A DNA stretch of 34,443 nucleotides from positions 1-34,443 of the forward strand of contig JANLIJ010000076.1 of assembly GCA_024653575.1 (NCBI GenBank). Direction: 5' to 3'. The notes below the pieces were generated by a model. That model saw only the letters and a list, made by a program, of their open reading frames with translations, was not told the DNA's origin and made no database searches. Origin of the DNA: Candidatus Kaiserbacteria bacterium. Lineage in GTDB: Bacteria; Patescibacteriota; Minisyncoccia; Phycocordibacterales; UBA918. A program made the position numbers and the translations under genes. Shown one piece after another: positions 5,929-30,976 of the stretch; position 1 is the stretch's first letter; each line of letters begins with the position of its first letter.

Positions 5929-6903
5929 ATGGCACTTGTTTATATTACCCGGCACATTCCAGACATTGGTATCAACCTCCTTCGGGCGGCAGGGCACACT
6001 GTTGACGTGAGTACCAAGGATGGTGTCCTCACCCCAGCAGAACTTATTACCGCCCTCAAAGCAAAACCATATGATGCGGTCATCTCGCTTCTTACCGACA
6101 CTATTAATAAAGAAGTTTTTGATGCTGTGCCTACGGCAAAGATTTTTGCAAACTACGCGGTCGGATACAACAACATCACACTCAGTGATGCAAAGGACGC
6201 GGGAGTGACCATTACCAACACACCAGGGGTGCTTACGGACACCGTTGCGGAATTTACCATTGCGCTCATGCTCGCTGTAGCAAAACGCATTCCCGAATCA
6301 GACGCATTTACACGAAAAGGAATGTACGAGGGATGGGGCCCAGAGCTTTTCCTTGGAAGTGACCTCAAGGGGAAGACGCTCGGTATACTCGGAGCAGGAC
6401 GTATCGGGTATGAGGTTGCTCGTCGTGCGGGACTTGGTCTTGGTATGAAGATTGCATATTACGATGTAAACCAAATGCCACAGATTGAAAATGACTTCGG
6501 TGCGGTATTTGTCCCCGAGGTTAATGACTTACTCAAGATTGCTGACGTGGTTACTATTCATGTGCCGTTACTTCCAACAACTGAACACCTCCTCAATGCT
6601 GAGCGATTCGCGCTCATGAAGCCTTCCGCATATCTCATCAATACTTCACGCGGTCCCGTTGTCGATGAAGATGCACTTGTGGTTGCACTCAAGAATGGAG
6701 TCATTCGAGGTGCCGGTATTGATGTGTTTGAGCATGAACCAAAACTTGCTCATGGACTCGTAGACCTTCCAAACGTCATTATCACTCCACACATTGCATC
6801 CGCATCGGATGAGACTCGCAATAAGATGTCAGAGATGGCCGCTCAAAATGCCATTGATTTCCTCGCAGGGGAAGTACCTGATAACGTTGTCGCTCTAGAT
6901 TAG
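5929..6903 (+). CDS. NAD-dependent D-isomer 2-hydroxyacid dehydrogenase (glyoxylate/hydroxypyruvate reductase-like)
   Basis: 324 aa; TLGILGAGRIGYEVARRA, LINTSRGPVVDEDALV, VIITPHIASASDETR. Confidence 0.9.
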   Translation: MALVYITRHIPDIGINLLRAAGHTVDVSTKDGVLTPAELITALKAKPYDAVISLLTDTINKEVFDAVPTAKIFANYAVGYNNITLSDAKDAGVTITNTPGVLTDTVAEFTIALMLAVAKRIPESDAFTRKGMYEGWGPELFLGSDLKGKTLGILGAGRIGYEVARRAGLGLGMKIAYYDVNQMPQIENDFGAVFVPEVNDLLKIADVVTIHVPLLPTTEHLLNAERFALMKPSAYLINTSRGPVVDEDALVVALKNGVIRGAGIDVFEHEPKLAHGLVDLPNVIITPHIASASDETRNKMSEMAAQNAIDFLAGEVPDNVVALD

Positions 6904-7011
6904 GGCATATCCCAAAACCCCCACAAACGCCCCGCTGTCCCAGGGGGGTGTTTGTGTGTTTGAATATTTTCCAGTCTATGGTATGGTAATCGTCACATAA
7001 ATTATATTAAT

Positions 7012-7750: not shown

Positions 7751-9118
7751 ATGAGAACGGGTTTTGCAGTCATCTTCACGATTTTTCTTTGTGCCACTTT
7801 CGCTGTGCCGAGCTTTAGTAGTGCACAGGAGGTTCCTGCTGTTTGTAACGACGATGTTGCAGGGAAGACTGAGGAACAGCTCAAGGCAGATCTGGCACTC
7901 TGTAATGCTGAGATAGCAAAATGGCAGGGGGTTCTTACGGGCACACGAGCAAAGGTGTCGACTATCGATGGTGATGTAAAGTCGTTGACTGCAAAAATAA
8001 AAGCGGCCGAAGCAACTATCAAATCAAAAAATATTGCCATCTCGCAACTCACGAAGGATATCAATACTCGAAGCAAAAAAATTGACGATATGGAGGTGCT
8101 CATTGATGAGGGTAAGAAGTCCCTCGCACAGCTCATCAGGCGGACACGCGAGCTCGACGAGTACTCGTTTGCTGAAGTTATTTTGAATAGTAAAAATCTT
8201 TCAGACTTCTTCAGCGACCTCGATTCATTCCTCGCAATTCAGCGTGGACTCGAAGACCACTTCTATGATGTACGTGAGGTTATTGTCCAGACAGAAGAAG
8301 AGCGCTCACGACTCAGCGAAGTTCAAAATCAGGAACTCGACGCAAAGTATGAAGTAGAGTCAAAAAAGAAGACAATTACCAAAAGTGAACAGGAAAAGAA
8401 ACAACTTCTCGCAGCAACAAAGCTTGAGGCAAAGTCATACGAACAGATTGTAAAGGACAGGCAGGCAAAAGCAGGTCAAATCAATGCGGCACTCTTCCGC
8501 CTTCGGGGCGTCGACGGTGGTGGAATTCCATTTAAAGATGCACTCTCGTATGCGCGTACCGCTGCTTCATATACGGGTGTCCGTGCGGCGTTTATTCTCG
8601 GTATCTTGAGGCAGGAGTCGAACCTTGGTGTGAATGTCGGGCAGTGCCTTCTTGTCGACACGAAGACCGGTGCAGGAAAGGGGAAGAATACCGGAACGCC
8701 GTTTGCAAACGTGATGAAGCCAGATAGAGACGTTCCGTACTTCCTCGATATGATGTCGCGTCTTGGGCGTGATCCATATACCACTCCTGTCTCATGTCCG
8801 CAGTCTATTGGATATGGAGGGGCGATGGGTCCAACACAGTTTATTCCGTCGACGTGGAAGGGGTATGAGGGGAGAATCGCACAGGCGTTTAGCGTCCCTG
8901 TCGGAGACCCATGGGACCCACAACACGCTATTATGGCAACAGCACTCTTTCTTCAAGACTTAGGTGCATCGCGAGGTGGGTACTCGGCTGAGCGCGAAGC
9001 GGCGGGACGCTACTATGCAGGAGGGAACTGGGCAACGTATGGACTTGGGTACGCAGCGAGCGTGCTTTCACATGCGGAGACTTATCAGGGGGATATTGAT
9101 TTCCTTGACGAAACCTAG
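7751..9118 (+). CDS. Secreted coiled-coil protein with C-terminal lytic murein transglycosylase (SLT/MltB-like) domain
   Basis: Signal peptide; long coiled coil; AAFILGILRQESNLGVNVG, GGAMGPTQFIPSTWKGY, ALFLQDLGA...RYYAGGNW. Confidence 0.88.
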   Translation: MRTGFAVIFTIFLCATFAVPSFSSAQEVPAVCNDDVAGKTEEQLKADLALCNAEIAKWQGVLTGTRAKVSTIDGDVKSLTAKIKAAEATIKSKNIAISQLTKDINTRSKKIDDMEVLIDEGKKSLAQLIRRTRELDEYSFAEVILNSKNLSDFFSDLDSFLAIQRGLEDHFYDVREVIVQTEEERSRLSEVQNQELDAKYEVESKKKTITKSEQEKKQLLAATKLEAKSYEQIVKDRQAKAGQINAALFRLRGVDGGGIPFKDALSYARTAASYTGVRAAFILGILRQESNLGVNVGQCLLVDTKTGAGKGKNTGTPFANVMKPDRDVPYFLDMMSRLGRDPYTTPVSCPQSIGYGGAMGPTQFIPSTWKGYEGRIAQAFSVPVGDPWDPQHAIMATALFLQDLGASRGGYSAEREAAGRYYAGGNWATYGLGYAASVLSHAETYQGDIDFLDET

Positions 9119-9243
9119 AGCATATTCCTAAAACCCACAAATCCTGCGTTGCATTCGCCAAGGTGACGTTCACCATATGTTAAATATGTCTCACGTCCCC
9201 TCGACTCTGCGTCTTGGATTTGCGAATTTTAGAAACATGCTCT
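9116..9243. repeat. Dispersed structured element (MITE-like), copy A
   Basis: TAGAGCATATTCCTAAAACCCACAAATCCTGCGTTG...GCGTCTTGGATTTGCGAATTTTAGAAACATGCTCT; complementary ends; homologous to 28023-28149. Confidence 0.75.
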
Positions 9244-9330
9244 CTGTTGAAGCGGATATCGAGGAGGAATGAAGTGGTTTTCAGCGAAGTACTTTGAGAA
9301 AACTGATATTGCTAAATAAATCAATTCTGG

Positions 9331-12583: not shown

Positions 12584-12656
12584 GCCGCCTTAGCTCAGCT
12601 GGTAGAGCAACACTTTTGTAAAGTGAAGGTCCTCAGTTCAAGTCTGAGAGGCGGCT
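12584..12656 (+). tRNA. tRNA-Thr (anticodon TGT), discriminator U, CCA not encoded
   Basis: GCCGCCT/AGGCGGC acceptor, GCTC/GAGC D-stem, loop TTTGTAA (TGT), T-arm CTCAG-TTCAAGT-CTGAG. Confidence 0.92.
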
Positions 12657-12680
12657 CAAAGAAAATAATACTAAATAGGG

Positions 12681-12768
12681 TAGCCTTAGCGAAGGTGGTG
12701 GAGTTAAAACAGCACGGGATGCTGTTTTAAGCTTTTGATAGTGAAGGTCCTCAGTTCAAGTCTGAGAG
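12681..12768 (+). pseudogene. Decayed tandem duplicate of tRNA-Thr with hairpin insertion
   Basis: CCTTAGC..TGGTGGAG..CAGCAC aligns with the tRNA 5' half; GTGAAGGTCCTCAGTTCAAGTCTGAGAG is identical to 12623-12650. Confidence 0.65.
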
Positions 12769-12978
12769 TGAGGAGTGACACAAAGTCACTCCGCAAGACT
12801 CACTGAGTGCTTTTGTGAATGAAATGAAACAAAAGAACCAGTGAGTGGACAGATCCTGTAAGGATGGCTCAAAAAACAAAATCATATACTCAAGAATAAG
12901 TAACAGATCTTCAGTTCAAACTCGAATGTGGGGGCTACGGGGATGGCTCAAAATTTTGAATCGTGCTTCCTAGTCACT

Positions 12979-13049: not shown

Positions 13050-14603
13050 ATGGCAAAACACAACCACCTATTACCATACGCTACACGGCCTGATTTTAAG
13101 GTTGGACGCGCCACTGAACTCACGGGCAAGAATAGGGTGCTCTATCGTTTCCTTGAAATCCTTCCCGGCGCAGCGTCGTGGTCCTCTCTCATTGCTATGG
13201 TGCTTGCATCTATATACGCGCCGTTTTTTGCTGCGTATTTCATTATTGCCTTCGCAGTTTTTTGGGTGCTTAAGACAGCATTTCTTTCCTATCACCTTCG
13301 GTACAATTGGAAGCGACTCAAACACCATATGTCGGTTGACTGGAAACTTATGATTGAGCGATTTGAGTATGAGCACCTCTATCAGCTCATTATTCTTCCG
13401 TATTACAACGAACCAGAGGAAGTTATTGAGGCGTCACTCCGTTCACTTTCGGAGGTGCGGTACGACAAAAAAAGCATGATCGTGGTACTTGCTCGTGAAG
13501 AACGTGCCGGGGAAAATGCACGGATAGTATCAGAGCGGATGAAGGAGAAATGGGGCGATACATTCGGTGGTTTTCATGTATCAGTGCATCCTGCGGATAT
13601 TCCTGGTGAAATGGCGGGGAAGGGCTCAAATGCGACATGGGCAGCAGAGGACGTGCGGAAGACCATTCTTGACCCACACGGTATTCGGTACAATCATACC
13701 CTCGTCTCAATCTTTGATATTGATACCGTTGTTTACCCCGATTACTTCAACTGCCTCGTGTGGCACTTCATGACCGCCGCGCACCCCCTCAAGAGTTCGT
13801 TCCAACCGGTGCCGGTATTTAATAACAATATGTGGGAAGCGTCTGCACTTGCACGTGTCGTTGCGATGTCGAGTACATTTTGGGAAATGGTACAGCAGGA
13901 GCGACCAGAACGAATGGCAACTTTTTCTTCACACTCGGTTTCTTTCCAAGCGCTCTATGAGATAGGGTATTGGCAGACAAATATGGTGAGTGAGGATTCG
14001 CGCATCTATTGGAATCTTCTTCTTGCAAATAATGGTGAATACGACGTTATCCCGCTTTCGTACCCGGTCTCGATGGATGCAAATGCCGCCCCAACGTTTT
14101 TGGGTACAGTAAAGAATATCTATAAGCAACACCGACGATGGACATACGGAGTTGAAAATTTTGTATACATTGTCTACCACTTCACGAAGAATAAATCGAT
14201 ACCGCGCGGTACACGCATCAAAATCGCGCTTCAGCAGGCAGAAGGGTATTGGTCTATGGTGACGAATCCAATCATGCTCATTATCCTCGGATGGGCGCCA
14301 ATCTTTTTCGGTGGACGAGTCTTTCACGAGACAGTTCTCTCGTACAACCTCCCGATTGTCGTTCGTGACCTTCTTATTCTTGCTATGTTTGGTCTCGTGG
14401 TCTCTTCTATCATCTCCCTCACCCTTATTCCGAAGCGCCCCGAGGGGAAGAATCGATTCATCTATGTTGTCATGGCACTTCAGTGGATACTCGTACCGGT
14501 CACGATGGTTGTCTTTAGCGCTATTCCAGGACTCGATGCACAGACTCGGCTCATGCTCGGAAAGTATATGGGGTTCTGGGTTACTCCCAAGGTCCGCAAC
14601 TAG
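13050..14603 (+). CDS. Membrane-bound family 2 glycosyltransferase
   Basis: Start trimmed from 13008 (TATACT 9 nt before 13050); ILPYYNEPEEVIEASLRSL, FDIDTVVYPDY, SEDSRIYW, QHRRW motif and several TM helices. Confidence 0.88.
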   Translation: MAKHNHLLPYATRPDFKVGRATELTGKNRVLYRFLEILPGAASWSSLIAMVLASIYAPFFAAYFIIAFAVFWVLKTAFLSYHLRYNWKRLKHHMSVDWKLMIERFEYEHLYQLIILPYYNEPEEVIEASLRSLSEVRYDKKSMIVVLAREERAGENARIVSERMKEKWGDTFGGFHVSVHPADIPGEMAGKGSNATWAAEDVRKTILDPHGIRYNHTLVSIFDIDTVVYPDYFNCLVWHFMTAAHPLKSSFQPVPVFNNNMWEASALARVVAMSSTFWEMVQQERPERMATFSSHSVSFQALYEIGYWQTNMVSEDSRIYWNLLLANNGEYDVIPLSYPVSMDANAAPTFLGTVKNIYKQHRRWTYGVENFVYIVYHFTKNKSIPRGTRIKIALQQAEGYWSMVTNPIMLIILGWAPIFFGGRVFHETVLSYNLPIVVRDLLILAMFGLVVSSIISLTLIPKRPEGKNRFIYVVMALQWILVPVTMVVFSAIPGLDAQTRLMLGKYMGFWVTPKVRN

Positions 14604-14696
14604 TGCACACTGAAAAATCGCTCATACTGCGTTGTATTTGCCGAGGCGATGCTGGGGAGGAAAAAAAGCACATAACGTGCTACGCTAGAGCAAATT

Positions 14697-19159: not shown

Positions 19160-21250
19160 GTGGCTAAACAAAGTTCATACAGTGCTGATTCCATCCAGAT
19201 TCTCGAGGGGCTTGAGCCAGTGCGAAAGCGCCCAGGGATGTACATTGGTACCACAGGCCCCGATGGGCTTCATCACCTCATCTGGGAGATTTTCGACAAC
19301 TCACGTGACGAGGCCATGGGTGGCTTTGCAAACCGCATCGAGGTAGCACTCCTCCCAGGGAACTACATTCGCGTCGTTGATAACGGACGTGGTATTCCCG
19401 TCGACATGCACAAGCAGACAAAGGTCTCTGCGCTCGAGACTATTCTCACTACACTCCATGCAGGAGGAAAATTTGGCGGTGAAGACACGGGATACAAAGT
19501 CTCAGGAGGACTCCACGGAGTGGGTGCTTCAGTAGTGAACGCGCTTTCGACGCATATGATTGCGGAGGTCCACCGTGACGGAGGATATTTCATTCAGGAA
19601 TACAATATTGGAAAGCCAAAGGCAAAGGTAAAGAAAGTGGGTCCTTCAAAACTTCAGGGAACTATCATTACGTTCAGGGCGGACGACACCATCTTCAATG
19701 AGATTAAGTATGACTACAAGCGCATCGTCTCACACATTCGCCAGCAGGCGTATCTGGTGAAGAGTATGCGTATTGCAGTTATTGATGCGCGCCCTACAGA
19801 AGAGGAGATGAAGGAAATGAGCGAGAAAGATGTACAGAAATTCCTCTCAGCGTTTGAGGGAAAGCAGTACCTTGCAGACCTGCACCTTGAGGTTCCTCAT
19901 ATGCATTTCTTCTTTGAGGGAGGATTGCGTTCGCTCGTTGCATTCAACAATCAGTATCAGAAGCCAGTACACGACAATATCTTCTATATTGAAAAGCAAA
20001 ATGTAGATTCCGCAGTACTCTCGGTTGAGGTTGCACTTCAGTATGTTGATGACATCACTCCTCGCATCAGCGCATTCGCAAACAACATATACAACCCTGA
20101 GCAGGGTACGCATATAACCGGCTTCAAGACCGCCCTTACGAGAACACTCAACAACTATGCTAAGAAGAATAATTTCTTCTCGGTGAAAGATAAAGATGCC
20201 GGGTTTACCGGAGACGATGTACTCGAGGGTATTACTGCCGTTGTCTCGGTGAAAATGCCTGAGATTCAGTTTGAAGGGCAGACAAAGGCAAAGCTCGGCT
20301 CCGTTGAGGCGCGTAGTGCAGTAGAGACTGTCTTTGGTGATGCCTTCAATGAGTATCTTGAGGAGAATCCAAATGATGCAAAAGCAATCATCAATAAAGT
20401 CATCATTGCGGTGAAAGCGCGTAAGGCCGCGAAGGCTGCAAAGGACTCTGTACTTCGTAAGGGAGCACTCGAAGGCATGACACTCCCCGGAAAGCTTGCT
20501 GACTGTCAGACAAAGAGCGCAGAGGAATCGGAGCTTTTCATTGTGGAGGGAGATTCTGCGGGTGGTTCTGCAAAGATGGGACGCGACCGCCGTACACAGG
20601 CAATCCTTCCACTCCGCGGAAAAATTCTCAACGTAGAGCGCGCGCGCCTCGATAGAATGCTTGGCTCAGAGCAGGTGAAGAACCTCGTCGTCGCGCTCGG
20701 TACTGCAATTGGCGATGTGTTCGATCTCTCAAAGCTTCGCTATCACAAGATTATTATCGCAACAGACGCTGACGTTGACGGAGCACACATTCGCACGCTT
20801 CTCCTCACGCTCTTTTATCGATATTTCAGGCCAATCATCGATGGGGGTTTCCTCTACATTGCACAACCACCACTCTATAAAATTCAGAGAGGAAAGGAAG
20901 TGCTCTACGCATACACGGATGAAGAAAAGCACAGTATCCTCGGCGTAGACGCTCCGACGGACGAAGGTGGGGAGACTGAGGAGGAAGAGGTAGAAGTCGA
21001 CGAAGAGACAGTAGAGGTTGCTACAAAAACTCAAAAAGTTCGCATCCAGCGATACAAAGGTCTTGGAGAGATGAACCCAGAAGAGCTTTGGGAGACAACG
21101 ATGAATCCAAAAAACCGTGTACTCAAGCAGGTCTCGGTCATTGATGCGCAAGATGCCGATAGGGTATTTGATATTCTCATGGGTACGGATGTGTCGAGTA
21201 GGAAGTCGTTCATACAGTCTAACGCTCACATGGCCAACCTCGATGTATAA
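19160..21250 (+). CDS. gyrB: DNA gyrase subunit B (type IIA topoisomerase B subunit)
   Basis: GTG start; LEPVRKRPGMYIGTTGPDGLHHL, VNALS, EGDSAGGSAKMGRDRRTQAILPLRGKILNVE, DADVDGAHIRTLLLT. Confidence 0.93.
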   Translation: MAKQSSYSADSIQILEGLEPVRKRPGMYIGTTGPDGLHHLIWEIFDNSRDEAMGGFANRIEVALLPGNYIRVVDNGRGIPVDMHKQTKVSALETILTTLHAGGKFGGEDTGYKVSGGLHGVGASVVNALSTHMIAEVHRDGGYFIQEYNIGKPKAKVKKVGPSKLQGTIITFRADDTIFNEIKYDYKRIVSHIRQQAYLVKSMRIAVIDARPTEEEMKEMSEKDVQKFLSAFEGKQYLADLHLEVPHMHFFFEGGLRSLVAFNNQYQKPVHDNIFYIEKQNVDSAVLSVEVALQYVDDITPRISAFANNIYNPEQGTHITGFKTALTRTLNNYAKKNNFFSVKDKDAGFTGDDVLEGITAVVSVKMPEIQFEGQTKAKLGSVEARSAVETVFGDAFNEYLEENPNDAKAIINKVIIAVKARKAAKAAKDSVLRKGALEGMTLPGKLADCQTKSAEESELFIVEGDSAGGSAKMGRDRRTQAILPLRGKILNVERARLDRMLGSEQVKNLVVALGTAIGDVFDLSKLRYHKIIIATDADVDGAHIRTLLLTLFYRYFRPIIDGGFLYIAQPPLYKIQRGKEVLYAYTDEEKHSILGVDAPTDEGGETEEEEVEVDEETVEVATKTQKVRIQRYKGLGEMNPEELWETTMNPKNRVLKQVSVIDAQDADRVFDILMGTDVSSRKSFIQSNAHMANLDV

Positions 21251-21623
21251 TTTAGGAAATCACTTCGTCACTGCTCGTTACATTTTGTTCACCGTACGTC
21301 TATGTACGTTTCACAAAATGTAACTTCGCGTTCCTCGCGCTTTCTCCAAATTCTACATCGAGGAACTTGGATGTGTAATTTTGCGGAATTGCTTTGTCGC
21401 TGCTCGCAATTTTTCATTTCTTACAGAAACTGTCTACTCATTGGACCTTCTGCGTCGCTTTGCTTGCATAAGGTCTCAATGAGTCTTGCGAAACTCCAAG
21501 TGTTCGTTTCTCACACCGTATCTATATACGGCTCATGAAAAATTACTTCACGCTCCGCGCACTTCCACCAAAATAACACCTCCAAAAAACCTCGACGTAT
21601 AATTTAGAAAATCACTTTGCCAC
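21241..21623. repeat. Tandem structured repeat region downstream of gyrB (2 full units + 1 partial)
   Basis: CGATGTATAATTTAGGAAATCACTTCGTCACTGCTCG (21241), GGATGTGTAATTTTGCGGAATTGCTTTGTCGCTGCTCG (21369), CGACGTATAATTTAGAAAATCACTTTGCCAC (21593), with nested hairpins. Confidence 0.75.
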
Positions 21624-21628
21624 TAACA

Positions 21629-27962: not shown

Positions 27963-27993
27963 AAAAAATACCGACATCAAGTCGGTATTTTTT
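27963..27993. terminator. Intrinsic terminator
   Basis: AAAAAATACCGAC-atcaa-GTCGGTATTTTTTT. Confidence 0.85.
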
Positions 27994-28022
27994 TGTGTTA
28001 CTCACTGAAAGGGTATGTTTTT

Positions 28023-28149
28023 AGAGTGTGTCATTAAAATTCACAAATCCAAGGCGTCAAATCGTAATTGTGTGAGGCGTATTCTATATACGATGAACCA
28101 ATTACGATGCAGACAACGCAGGATTTGTGGGTTTTAAGACATGCTCTTA
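28023..28149. repeat. Dispersed structured element (MITE-like), copy B, abutting the thrS stop codon
   Basis: On minus: TAAGAGCATGTCTTAAAACCCACAAATCCTGCGTTG...GCCTTGGATTTGTGAATTTTAATGACACACTCT; ends complementary. Confidence 0.75.
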
Positions 28150-30932: not shown

Positions 30933-30976
30933 CAATTTATACCATAAGACGCAATTGCGTCTTATGGTATAAATTG
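30933..30976. repeat. Perfect 44-bp palindrome between convergent genes
   Basis: CAATTTATACCATAAGACGCAATTGCGTCTTATGGTATAAATTG; ends one base from the dnaE stop codon. Confidence 0.95.

Follow-up and report, generated by a model that had tools for sequence, protein, structure and literature searches.

REP palindromes are known to lie close to the 3′ ends of open reading frames (ORFs); in the GTAG class, the flanking ORF often takes its TAG stop codon from the REP itself, and the CGTC class occurs without a dedicated transposase (PMC3733652). E. coli REPs located within 15 nt of a stop codon stall ribosomes, as summarized in PMC12306157. The attC sites are recombined only through their folded bottom strand and show little sequence conservation (PMC2727003). 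Rickettsia palindromic elements (RPE) have also been mentioned in this context (PMC3733652). Ever since REPs and attC sites were first described, it has been asked how such palindromic repeats originate and find the ends of genes. The attC sites are similar in length to the elements described here and lie near a stop codon, and RPEs are palindromes of ~100–150 bp in a reduced genome, without a known transposase, that can sit in frame inside genes.

Here, we describe a family of palindromic, non-coding elements of ~137 bp that is apparently undescribed so far; no earlier description was found in the open-access literature, and the elements had no match in Rfam 15 at the gathering cutoff or at E ≤ 1. 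The genomes concerned are compact, yet one structured element is located at the ends of many genes, ribosomal ones included, and takes up the ends of up to ~4% of the genes in host genomes. The element may be a non-autonomous DNA palindrome of the REP/attC kind, moved as a folded single strand by a probably host-encoded, structure-specific enzyme, a reading that we hold to be about evenly balanced between right and wrong. Such a family, with Watson–Crick-compensated arms, an antisense fold, and exact joining to gene ends, would give a new handle on the origin of REPs and attC sites and on the way in which they find gene ends.

The elements resemble the REP/BIME/RAYT systems in that both consist of dispersed non-coding palindromes near the 3′ ends of upstream ORFs. 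However, REPs measure only 20–40 bp, whereas the elements are longer, keep nearly always one orientation to the gene, and have locus-specific compensated arms. Only 15 of 119 elements had GTAG or CGTC within −7 to +13 of the left border, and no link to RAYT-type Y1 transposases was seen. With attC sites, the elements share an imperfect palindrome whose bottom strand folds better than the top strand (115 of 116 elements), which is a common property and not a sign of membership. The attC boxes RYYYAAC and GTTRRRY (R″/R′) were found together in none of the 119 elements, and four recombinases of the group scored 131–141 bits against TIGR02249, the model of the integron integrase IntI, for which the cut-off is 265. 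The tyrosine recombinases of the group are XerA/XerD-like. Identity with integron attC sites was therefore rejected, as boxes and integrase are absent; moreover, the hosts are dispersed housekeeping genes, not cassettes. One copy lying in frame inside lepA resembles the palindromic elements within Rickettsia genes, but the family is set apart from RPE, by description, through its location mostly at gene ends and its strand-asymmetric fold.

Element copies in the window

The window, that is, the whole 34,443-nt stretch of DNA that was analysed, contains three full copies (lytic transglycosylase, thrS, and gyrB), one diverged gyrB copy, and two truncated copies. The first full copy, which belongs to subfamily A, extends over 9116..9244 on the plus strand, flush with the TAG of the lytic transglycosylase gene, with the left arm at ~9117–9150 and the right arm at ~9210–9243. 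It was matched by BLAST and by the covariance model (118–140 bits) and folds into one long imperfect hairpin (z = −6.4 against dinucleotide shuffles), with energies of −66.1 kcal/mol for the antisense strand and −40.8 kcal/mol for the sense strand. The second full copy, also of subfamily A and matched by the covariance model, occupies 28022..28149 on the minus strand, flush with the TAA of thrS (z = −8.7 against dinucleotide shuffles; antisense −56.4 vs. sense −44.6 kcal/mol), and an intrinsic terminator lies past it at ~27966–27996 in plus-strand coordinates. The initial annotation had singled out a dispersed structured element at these two places, which the matches and folds bear out. The length of ~125 bp given there was slightly short, as in subfamily A ~10 nt past the right arm (TTGGTTGGAG) are also common to the copies.

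A third full copy, overlooked at that stage along with the two features behind it, is located at the end of gyrB at 21237..21374 on the plus strand (covariance-model match, 78 bits with model R2). Its outer stem takes in the last gyrB codons and the stop codon, and its energies are −55.7 kcal/mol for the antisense strand and −44.2 kcal/mol for the sense strand. The adjoining stretch at 21374..21586 (plus strand), which falls below the covariance-model call, is probably a diverged second copy in tandem, judging from sequence inspection and fold. It carries the core motifs TTGCTTTGTCGCTGCTC, CACACCGTATCTATATACGGCTC, and CGCTCCGCGCACTTC and holds an inserted second structured module at ~21415–21500. 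A duplicate of the gyrB gene end and left arm (AACCTCGACGTATAATTTAG...) follows at 21588..21624 on the plus strand, 352 nt away from the first and ahead of the terminator; it forms direct repeat D5 (89% identity).

The relatives suspected at 6901 and 14601 proved to be real, but both are truncated and lack the right half. At 6901..6930 (plus strand), the left arm alone is flush with the TAG of the hydroxyacid dehydrogenase gene, and an ordinary hairpin comes after it. At 14601..14650 (plus strand), a subfamily B-like left half with the AAAAATCGCTCATACTGCGTTGT block is flush with the TAG of the GT2 gene. They have blocks of 27 nt and 23 nt in common with the left arms of subfamilies A and B, and their scores exceeded those of every one of 2000 shuffles and of 2781 gene ends taken as controls from another genome.

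Distribution among genomes

A BLAST search with the first copy returned nine copies in the 1.03-Mb source genome, all in one orientation and positioned at, or immediately adjacent to, a long-ORF stop codon. Covariance models were built from six copies (R1) and from 48 copies (R2), and R2 placed the element at ~36 distinct sites in this genome, where two subfamilies with common arms (A and B) have been amplified to ~17 genes. Among the source genome and its relatives, 26 of 41 genomes had R2 matches at E ≤ 0.01, the E-values being rough owing to a short calibration and weak copies being dropped by strict filters. The counts included 30 in G007, 30 in G024, 25 in G012, and 21 in G022, although copies inside one genome are kin and such counts are thus not independent. 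No copy was found by the R2 search in G010 and G013, which are near-complete relatives of the same family. When more same-family genomes were searched with R1, copies were found in most of them (e.g., 27 in G033), and a shallow class-wide scan, in which only 11 candidates were scored per genome, gave matches at E ≤ 1e-6 in 39 of 289 genomes. Distant copies keep the core of CTTCGTTG, TCACCGTA-loop-TACGGCTC, and CGCCTCG. Genome size and gene content suggest that the bacteria carrying the family are Patescibacteria (Paceibacteria, “Parcubacteria”).

Structure and compensatory changes

From the gene outward, the element starts with a locus-specific outer stem of ~16–28 bp and an internal-loop region, the two sides of which carry CTNCGTTG and CGCCTYG. 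A variable middle stem comes next, and then a symmetric internal loop and a 5-bp apical stem, both conserved. The outer stem usually takes in the stop codon and can extend up to ~14 nt into the coding end, in which case the right arm mirrors the last codons of the gene. In a 48-row alignment, 44 of 46 pairs showed change on both sides, amounting to 665 two-sided cells. The covariation score was 0.70 compared with ~0.10 when the partner was slid (0 of 500 shuffles), and its absolute value is biased upward by an alignment fitted to the structure; even so, the slid controls and the shuffles leave little doubt that the compensatory change in the arms is real. A protein encoded on the antisense strand (a recurrent RIWTYGE-like peptide) was dropped as a candidate because the frame is lost when the loop length changes.

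Position at gene ends and host genes

The orientation flush with a stop codon, first noted at the sites in the window, holds for most copies of the family. Of the two outcomes that the initial annotation had named as refuting, a lack of enrichment at stop codons and a lack of compensatory change in the arms, neither was observed. In 86 of 119 distinct copies, the stop codon of a same-strand ORF of at least 60 codons lies at −5 to +16 of the model start, where 4.9% would be expected; with an ORF limit of 45 and an interval of −6 to +20, 92 of the 119 start at a stop codon. TGA is scarce at these sites (2 of 86) compared with its share of ~14% among long-ORF stops in G024. Three copies, in three genomes, lie directly behind the 3′ end of 23S rRNA, and the copy inside lepA (L140 4493–4632, G024) adds ~40 codons to the gene. 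Another copy is reversed and adjoins the start of a gene that reads as rpmI by eye, and in tandem pairs the copy nearer the stop codon outscores the distal one. These cases indicate that the anchor is the gene end and not translation termination as such.

The hosts in most genomes are core genes, many of which would be expected to show high expression. Ribosomal proteins make up 7 of the ~21 coding hosts in G024 (L2, L6, L7/L12, L20, S7, S12, and S13), and GroEL, trigger factor, DnaN, and 23S rRNA are further hosts there. S7, S12, L6, L28, NusG, AtpE, AtpD, NDK, PilC, and GroEL, some of them named from their C-termini, recur as hosts in distant genomes. Downstream neighbours are oriented as they are for genes on average (co-directional to convergent 25:9, compared with 424:164), so the elements are not limited to operon ends, and many copies lie within operons.

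The main rival explanation is a gene-end DNA device that serves the host, such as a site where gyrase or a nucleoid protein binds or a barrier in replication/transcription conflicts, which selection would keep at highly expressed genes and recombination between copies would spread. The ribosomal, GroEL, trigger factor, and 23S rRNA hosts of G024 and the average downstream context fit this explanation, and the return of the same hosts in distant genomes (S7, NusG, L6, AtpE, and NDK) would also fit a host function kept by selection. In addition, nothing in the DNA alone accounts for gene-end targeting, which is a point against mobile DNA. However, the family is patchy, with no copy found in G010 and G013, the amplified subfamilies of the source genome are on ordinary genes that are not obviously highly expressed, one copy lies inside lepA, and orthologous genes are often empty. 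We regard a host-serving device as a serious possibility, although a doubtful one.

Folding of the two strands

In 115 of 116 copies, the antisense strand has the more stable fold, the mean advantage over the sense strand being 12.2 kcal/mol with RNA energies and 4.8 kcal/mol with DNA energies. In sense-strand stems, A·C outnumbers G·T in 93 copies and the reverse holds in 8; the bias persists outside the source genome (72 copies vs. 5) and in each of the three variable helices. On the antisense strand, the sense A·C mismatches become G·T wobbles, and the frequent C·T mismatches become G·A pairs. As a control, 118 intrinsic terminators of related genomes, picked by a strand-neutral rule, were without bias (38 vs. 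36; G·T 17 vs. A·C 15). Together with the two-sided pair changes, this asymmetry indicates that the folded strand complementary to the gene matters, and it suggests handling as single-stranded DNA. Mutational strand bias was rejected as the cause, since ordinary terminators show no bias and the best-known biases, caused by deamination of the coding or leading strand, would act in the opposite direction. Part of the asymmetry could arise because a stable sense-mRNA hairpin is selected against, and not because the antisense fold is selected for. In that case, the element would still be a DNA element, but the claim that the antisense fold is used would be weaker.

The better fold of the antisense strand would also be expected of a structured small antisense RNA that ends at the stop codon of the gene. 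Read antisense, the elements have a G·U to A·C ratio of ~3:1, with no significant difference from the tRNA stems of the same genomes (25 to 4; Fisher p 0.26), a likeness that fixes the strand but not whether RNA or DNA is involved. The search for an antisense promoter gave no signal (best score 8.22 vs. 8.29 in shuffled sequence), which speaks against an independent antisense RNA. The right flanks are conserved in subfamily A only, many copies are inside operons, and Rfam gave no match, which makes such an RNA improbable in our judgement.

The initial annotation had offered, as one of its two readings, a conserved 3′UTR or terminator-like RNA. A sense 3′UTR hairpin could protect the mRNA 3′ end, slow ribosomes at the stop codon, or terminate transcription; its position would be like that of the E. 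coli REPs treated in PMC12306157, and the sense strand folds well in its own right, at ~−40 kcal/mol. However, the sense fold is almost always the weaker one, and a U-tract directly past the sense hairpin is absent, the right flanks reading, for example, TTGGTTGGAG, CATTTTG, and CTATACT. Intrinsic terminators of their own lie behind several copies (thrS, pilB, and class-I aldolase), some copies are mid-operon, and those behind 23S rRNA have no need of a stop codon. The strand test and the separate terminators thus rule against a sense RNA, which we consider very improbable. Annotation pipelines would take the element for a terminator or a 3′UTR RNA, and the strand test is a simple way to tell them apart.

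Gain, loss, and replacement of copies

In the source genome (G000), the element of thrS lies between the stop codon and the terminator. At 29 other loci that were inspected, two of them from the same genus, the thrS stop codon was free of the element, and in most of these an ordinary terminator directly follows the stop codon. The pilC gene is present as two alleles on two contigs (C179 and C180 of G000), which are 93% identical in the coding sequence and 90% identical in the distal flank but carry unrelated elements beginning at the same TAG. One allele keeps, behind its own element, a seeming remnant of the right arm of the other element, and the pilC end of the same-genus relative G001 is empty. 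As a side observation, the two alleles point to a probable mixture of two strains, or to a recent duplication, in the G000 assembly. Protein C-termini are intact at the element-bearing genes. The empty thrS sites and the different elements of the two pilC alleles indicate that copies come and go, and their position, single orientation, empty sites, and replacement indicate that they arrive at gene ends.

These results agree with the other reading of the initial annotation, a MITE-like element targeting gene ends, insofar as the element is dispersed, recently amplified in the source genome, absent at thrS in relatives, and flush with gene ends. It does not qualify as a classical MITE, because no target-site duplication is present and, in most genomes, each locus has terminal arms of its own. 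A classical MITE that a DDE transposase moves, with GAGCATGTC... as the terminal inverted repeats and TA or TNA duplicated at the target, is scarcely credible. In its favour, subfamilies A and B have common ends like some IS5-group ends, which is a lead only, and TA is present at both ends of some copies (L021, L068, and L029). Against it, TA occurs at the right end (after CTC, beside a left TA) in only 4 of 14 subfamily A/B copies, which is chance level, outer arms that are locus-specific in most genomes leave no fixed terminal repeat, and a TA target alone would not prefer in-frame stop codons. A TA/TNA transposon with IS5-like ends was rejected for lack of target duplication.

Proposed mode of movement

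The preferred reading remains a non-autonomous palindrome moved as a folded single strand of DNA. Its working shape would be the hairpin of the strand complementary to the upstream gene, with purine-rich sequence in the conserved internal loops of this antisense hairpin. New copies would attach to gene 3′ ends, directly against the stop codon or immediately past 23S rRNA, with almost always the same orientation; they would spare the protein C-terminus and would later be replaced or displaced. A structure-recognising recombinase or transposase would handle the folded single strand in the style of attC or REPs, and the strand asymmetry would set the orientation. A dedicated reaction, and not recombination between copies, probably accounts for the movement, and the enzyme is presumably encoded by the host.

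The search for a candidate enzyme gave none, as Y1 transposase, reverse transcriptase, and tyrosine recombinase do not track copy number. An IS200/REP-type Y1 transposase was rejected because PF01797 is absent from the element-rich genomes G004, G007, G012, G018, G017, and G021. Retro-insertion by a reverse transcriptase, an idea prompted by the truncated copies with only the left part, was rejected because PF00078 is absent from the copy-rich genomes G004, G006, G007, and G023. A single Xer-type recombinase occurs in nearly all genomes, and its near-universal presence neither favours nor disfavours it as the enzyme.

A more far-reaching version, which we think unlikely, is a new mode of mobility in which genes with abundant expression, coding or rRNA, would receive the element at their 3′ ends and the antisense strand would serve as working strand or template. 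Targeting would then act via the transcript or its 3′ end and not via the DNA sequence. This idea draws on the anchoring at both mRNA and 23S rRNA ends, the highly expressed hosts in the non-amplified genome G024, the loss of the distal half in truncated copies, and the absence of target duplication.

Other structured sequences

A second dispersed structured module, CGCAAGACTCA..TG ... CA.TGAGT..GACAG...CTGTAAG, was observed in the window at 12766–12870 and 21415–21500, in the ackA element (L003), and in L117 at 8590–8690 and 9120–9200. The module is embedded in other elements or follows them; it also follows a tRNA and is embedded in 5S-like sequence. Intergenic positions of the window at 1565–1608, 1635–1676, 1683–1718, and 30933–30976 hold four perfect palindromes (arms 18–22 bp, loops 0–2 nt), none of which matches the covariance model of the element.

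The rRNA and tRNA loci of G024 showed further peculiarities. At L117 8980–9290, a broken 5S rRNA-like copy with hairpin-forming inserts at several places lies beside an intact 5S gene, and at L117 8282–8450 a tRNA gene has an insert, perhaps an intron, that holds a 23S rRNA-like stretch (CCGTAACTATAACGGTCCT). The 3′ end of 16S rRNA at L118 6440–6480 reads GGATTAATTCC where GGATCACCTCC is usual, and the usual anti-Shine–Dalgarno sequence seems to be missing or interrupted there. In the window, at 12584–12768, a tRNA has a second copy of its 3′ half (TGAAGGTCCTCAGTTCAAGTCTGAGAG) 118 nt downstream, and the stretch in between is structured; this arrangement resembles the duplicated gene end behind gyrB.
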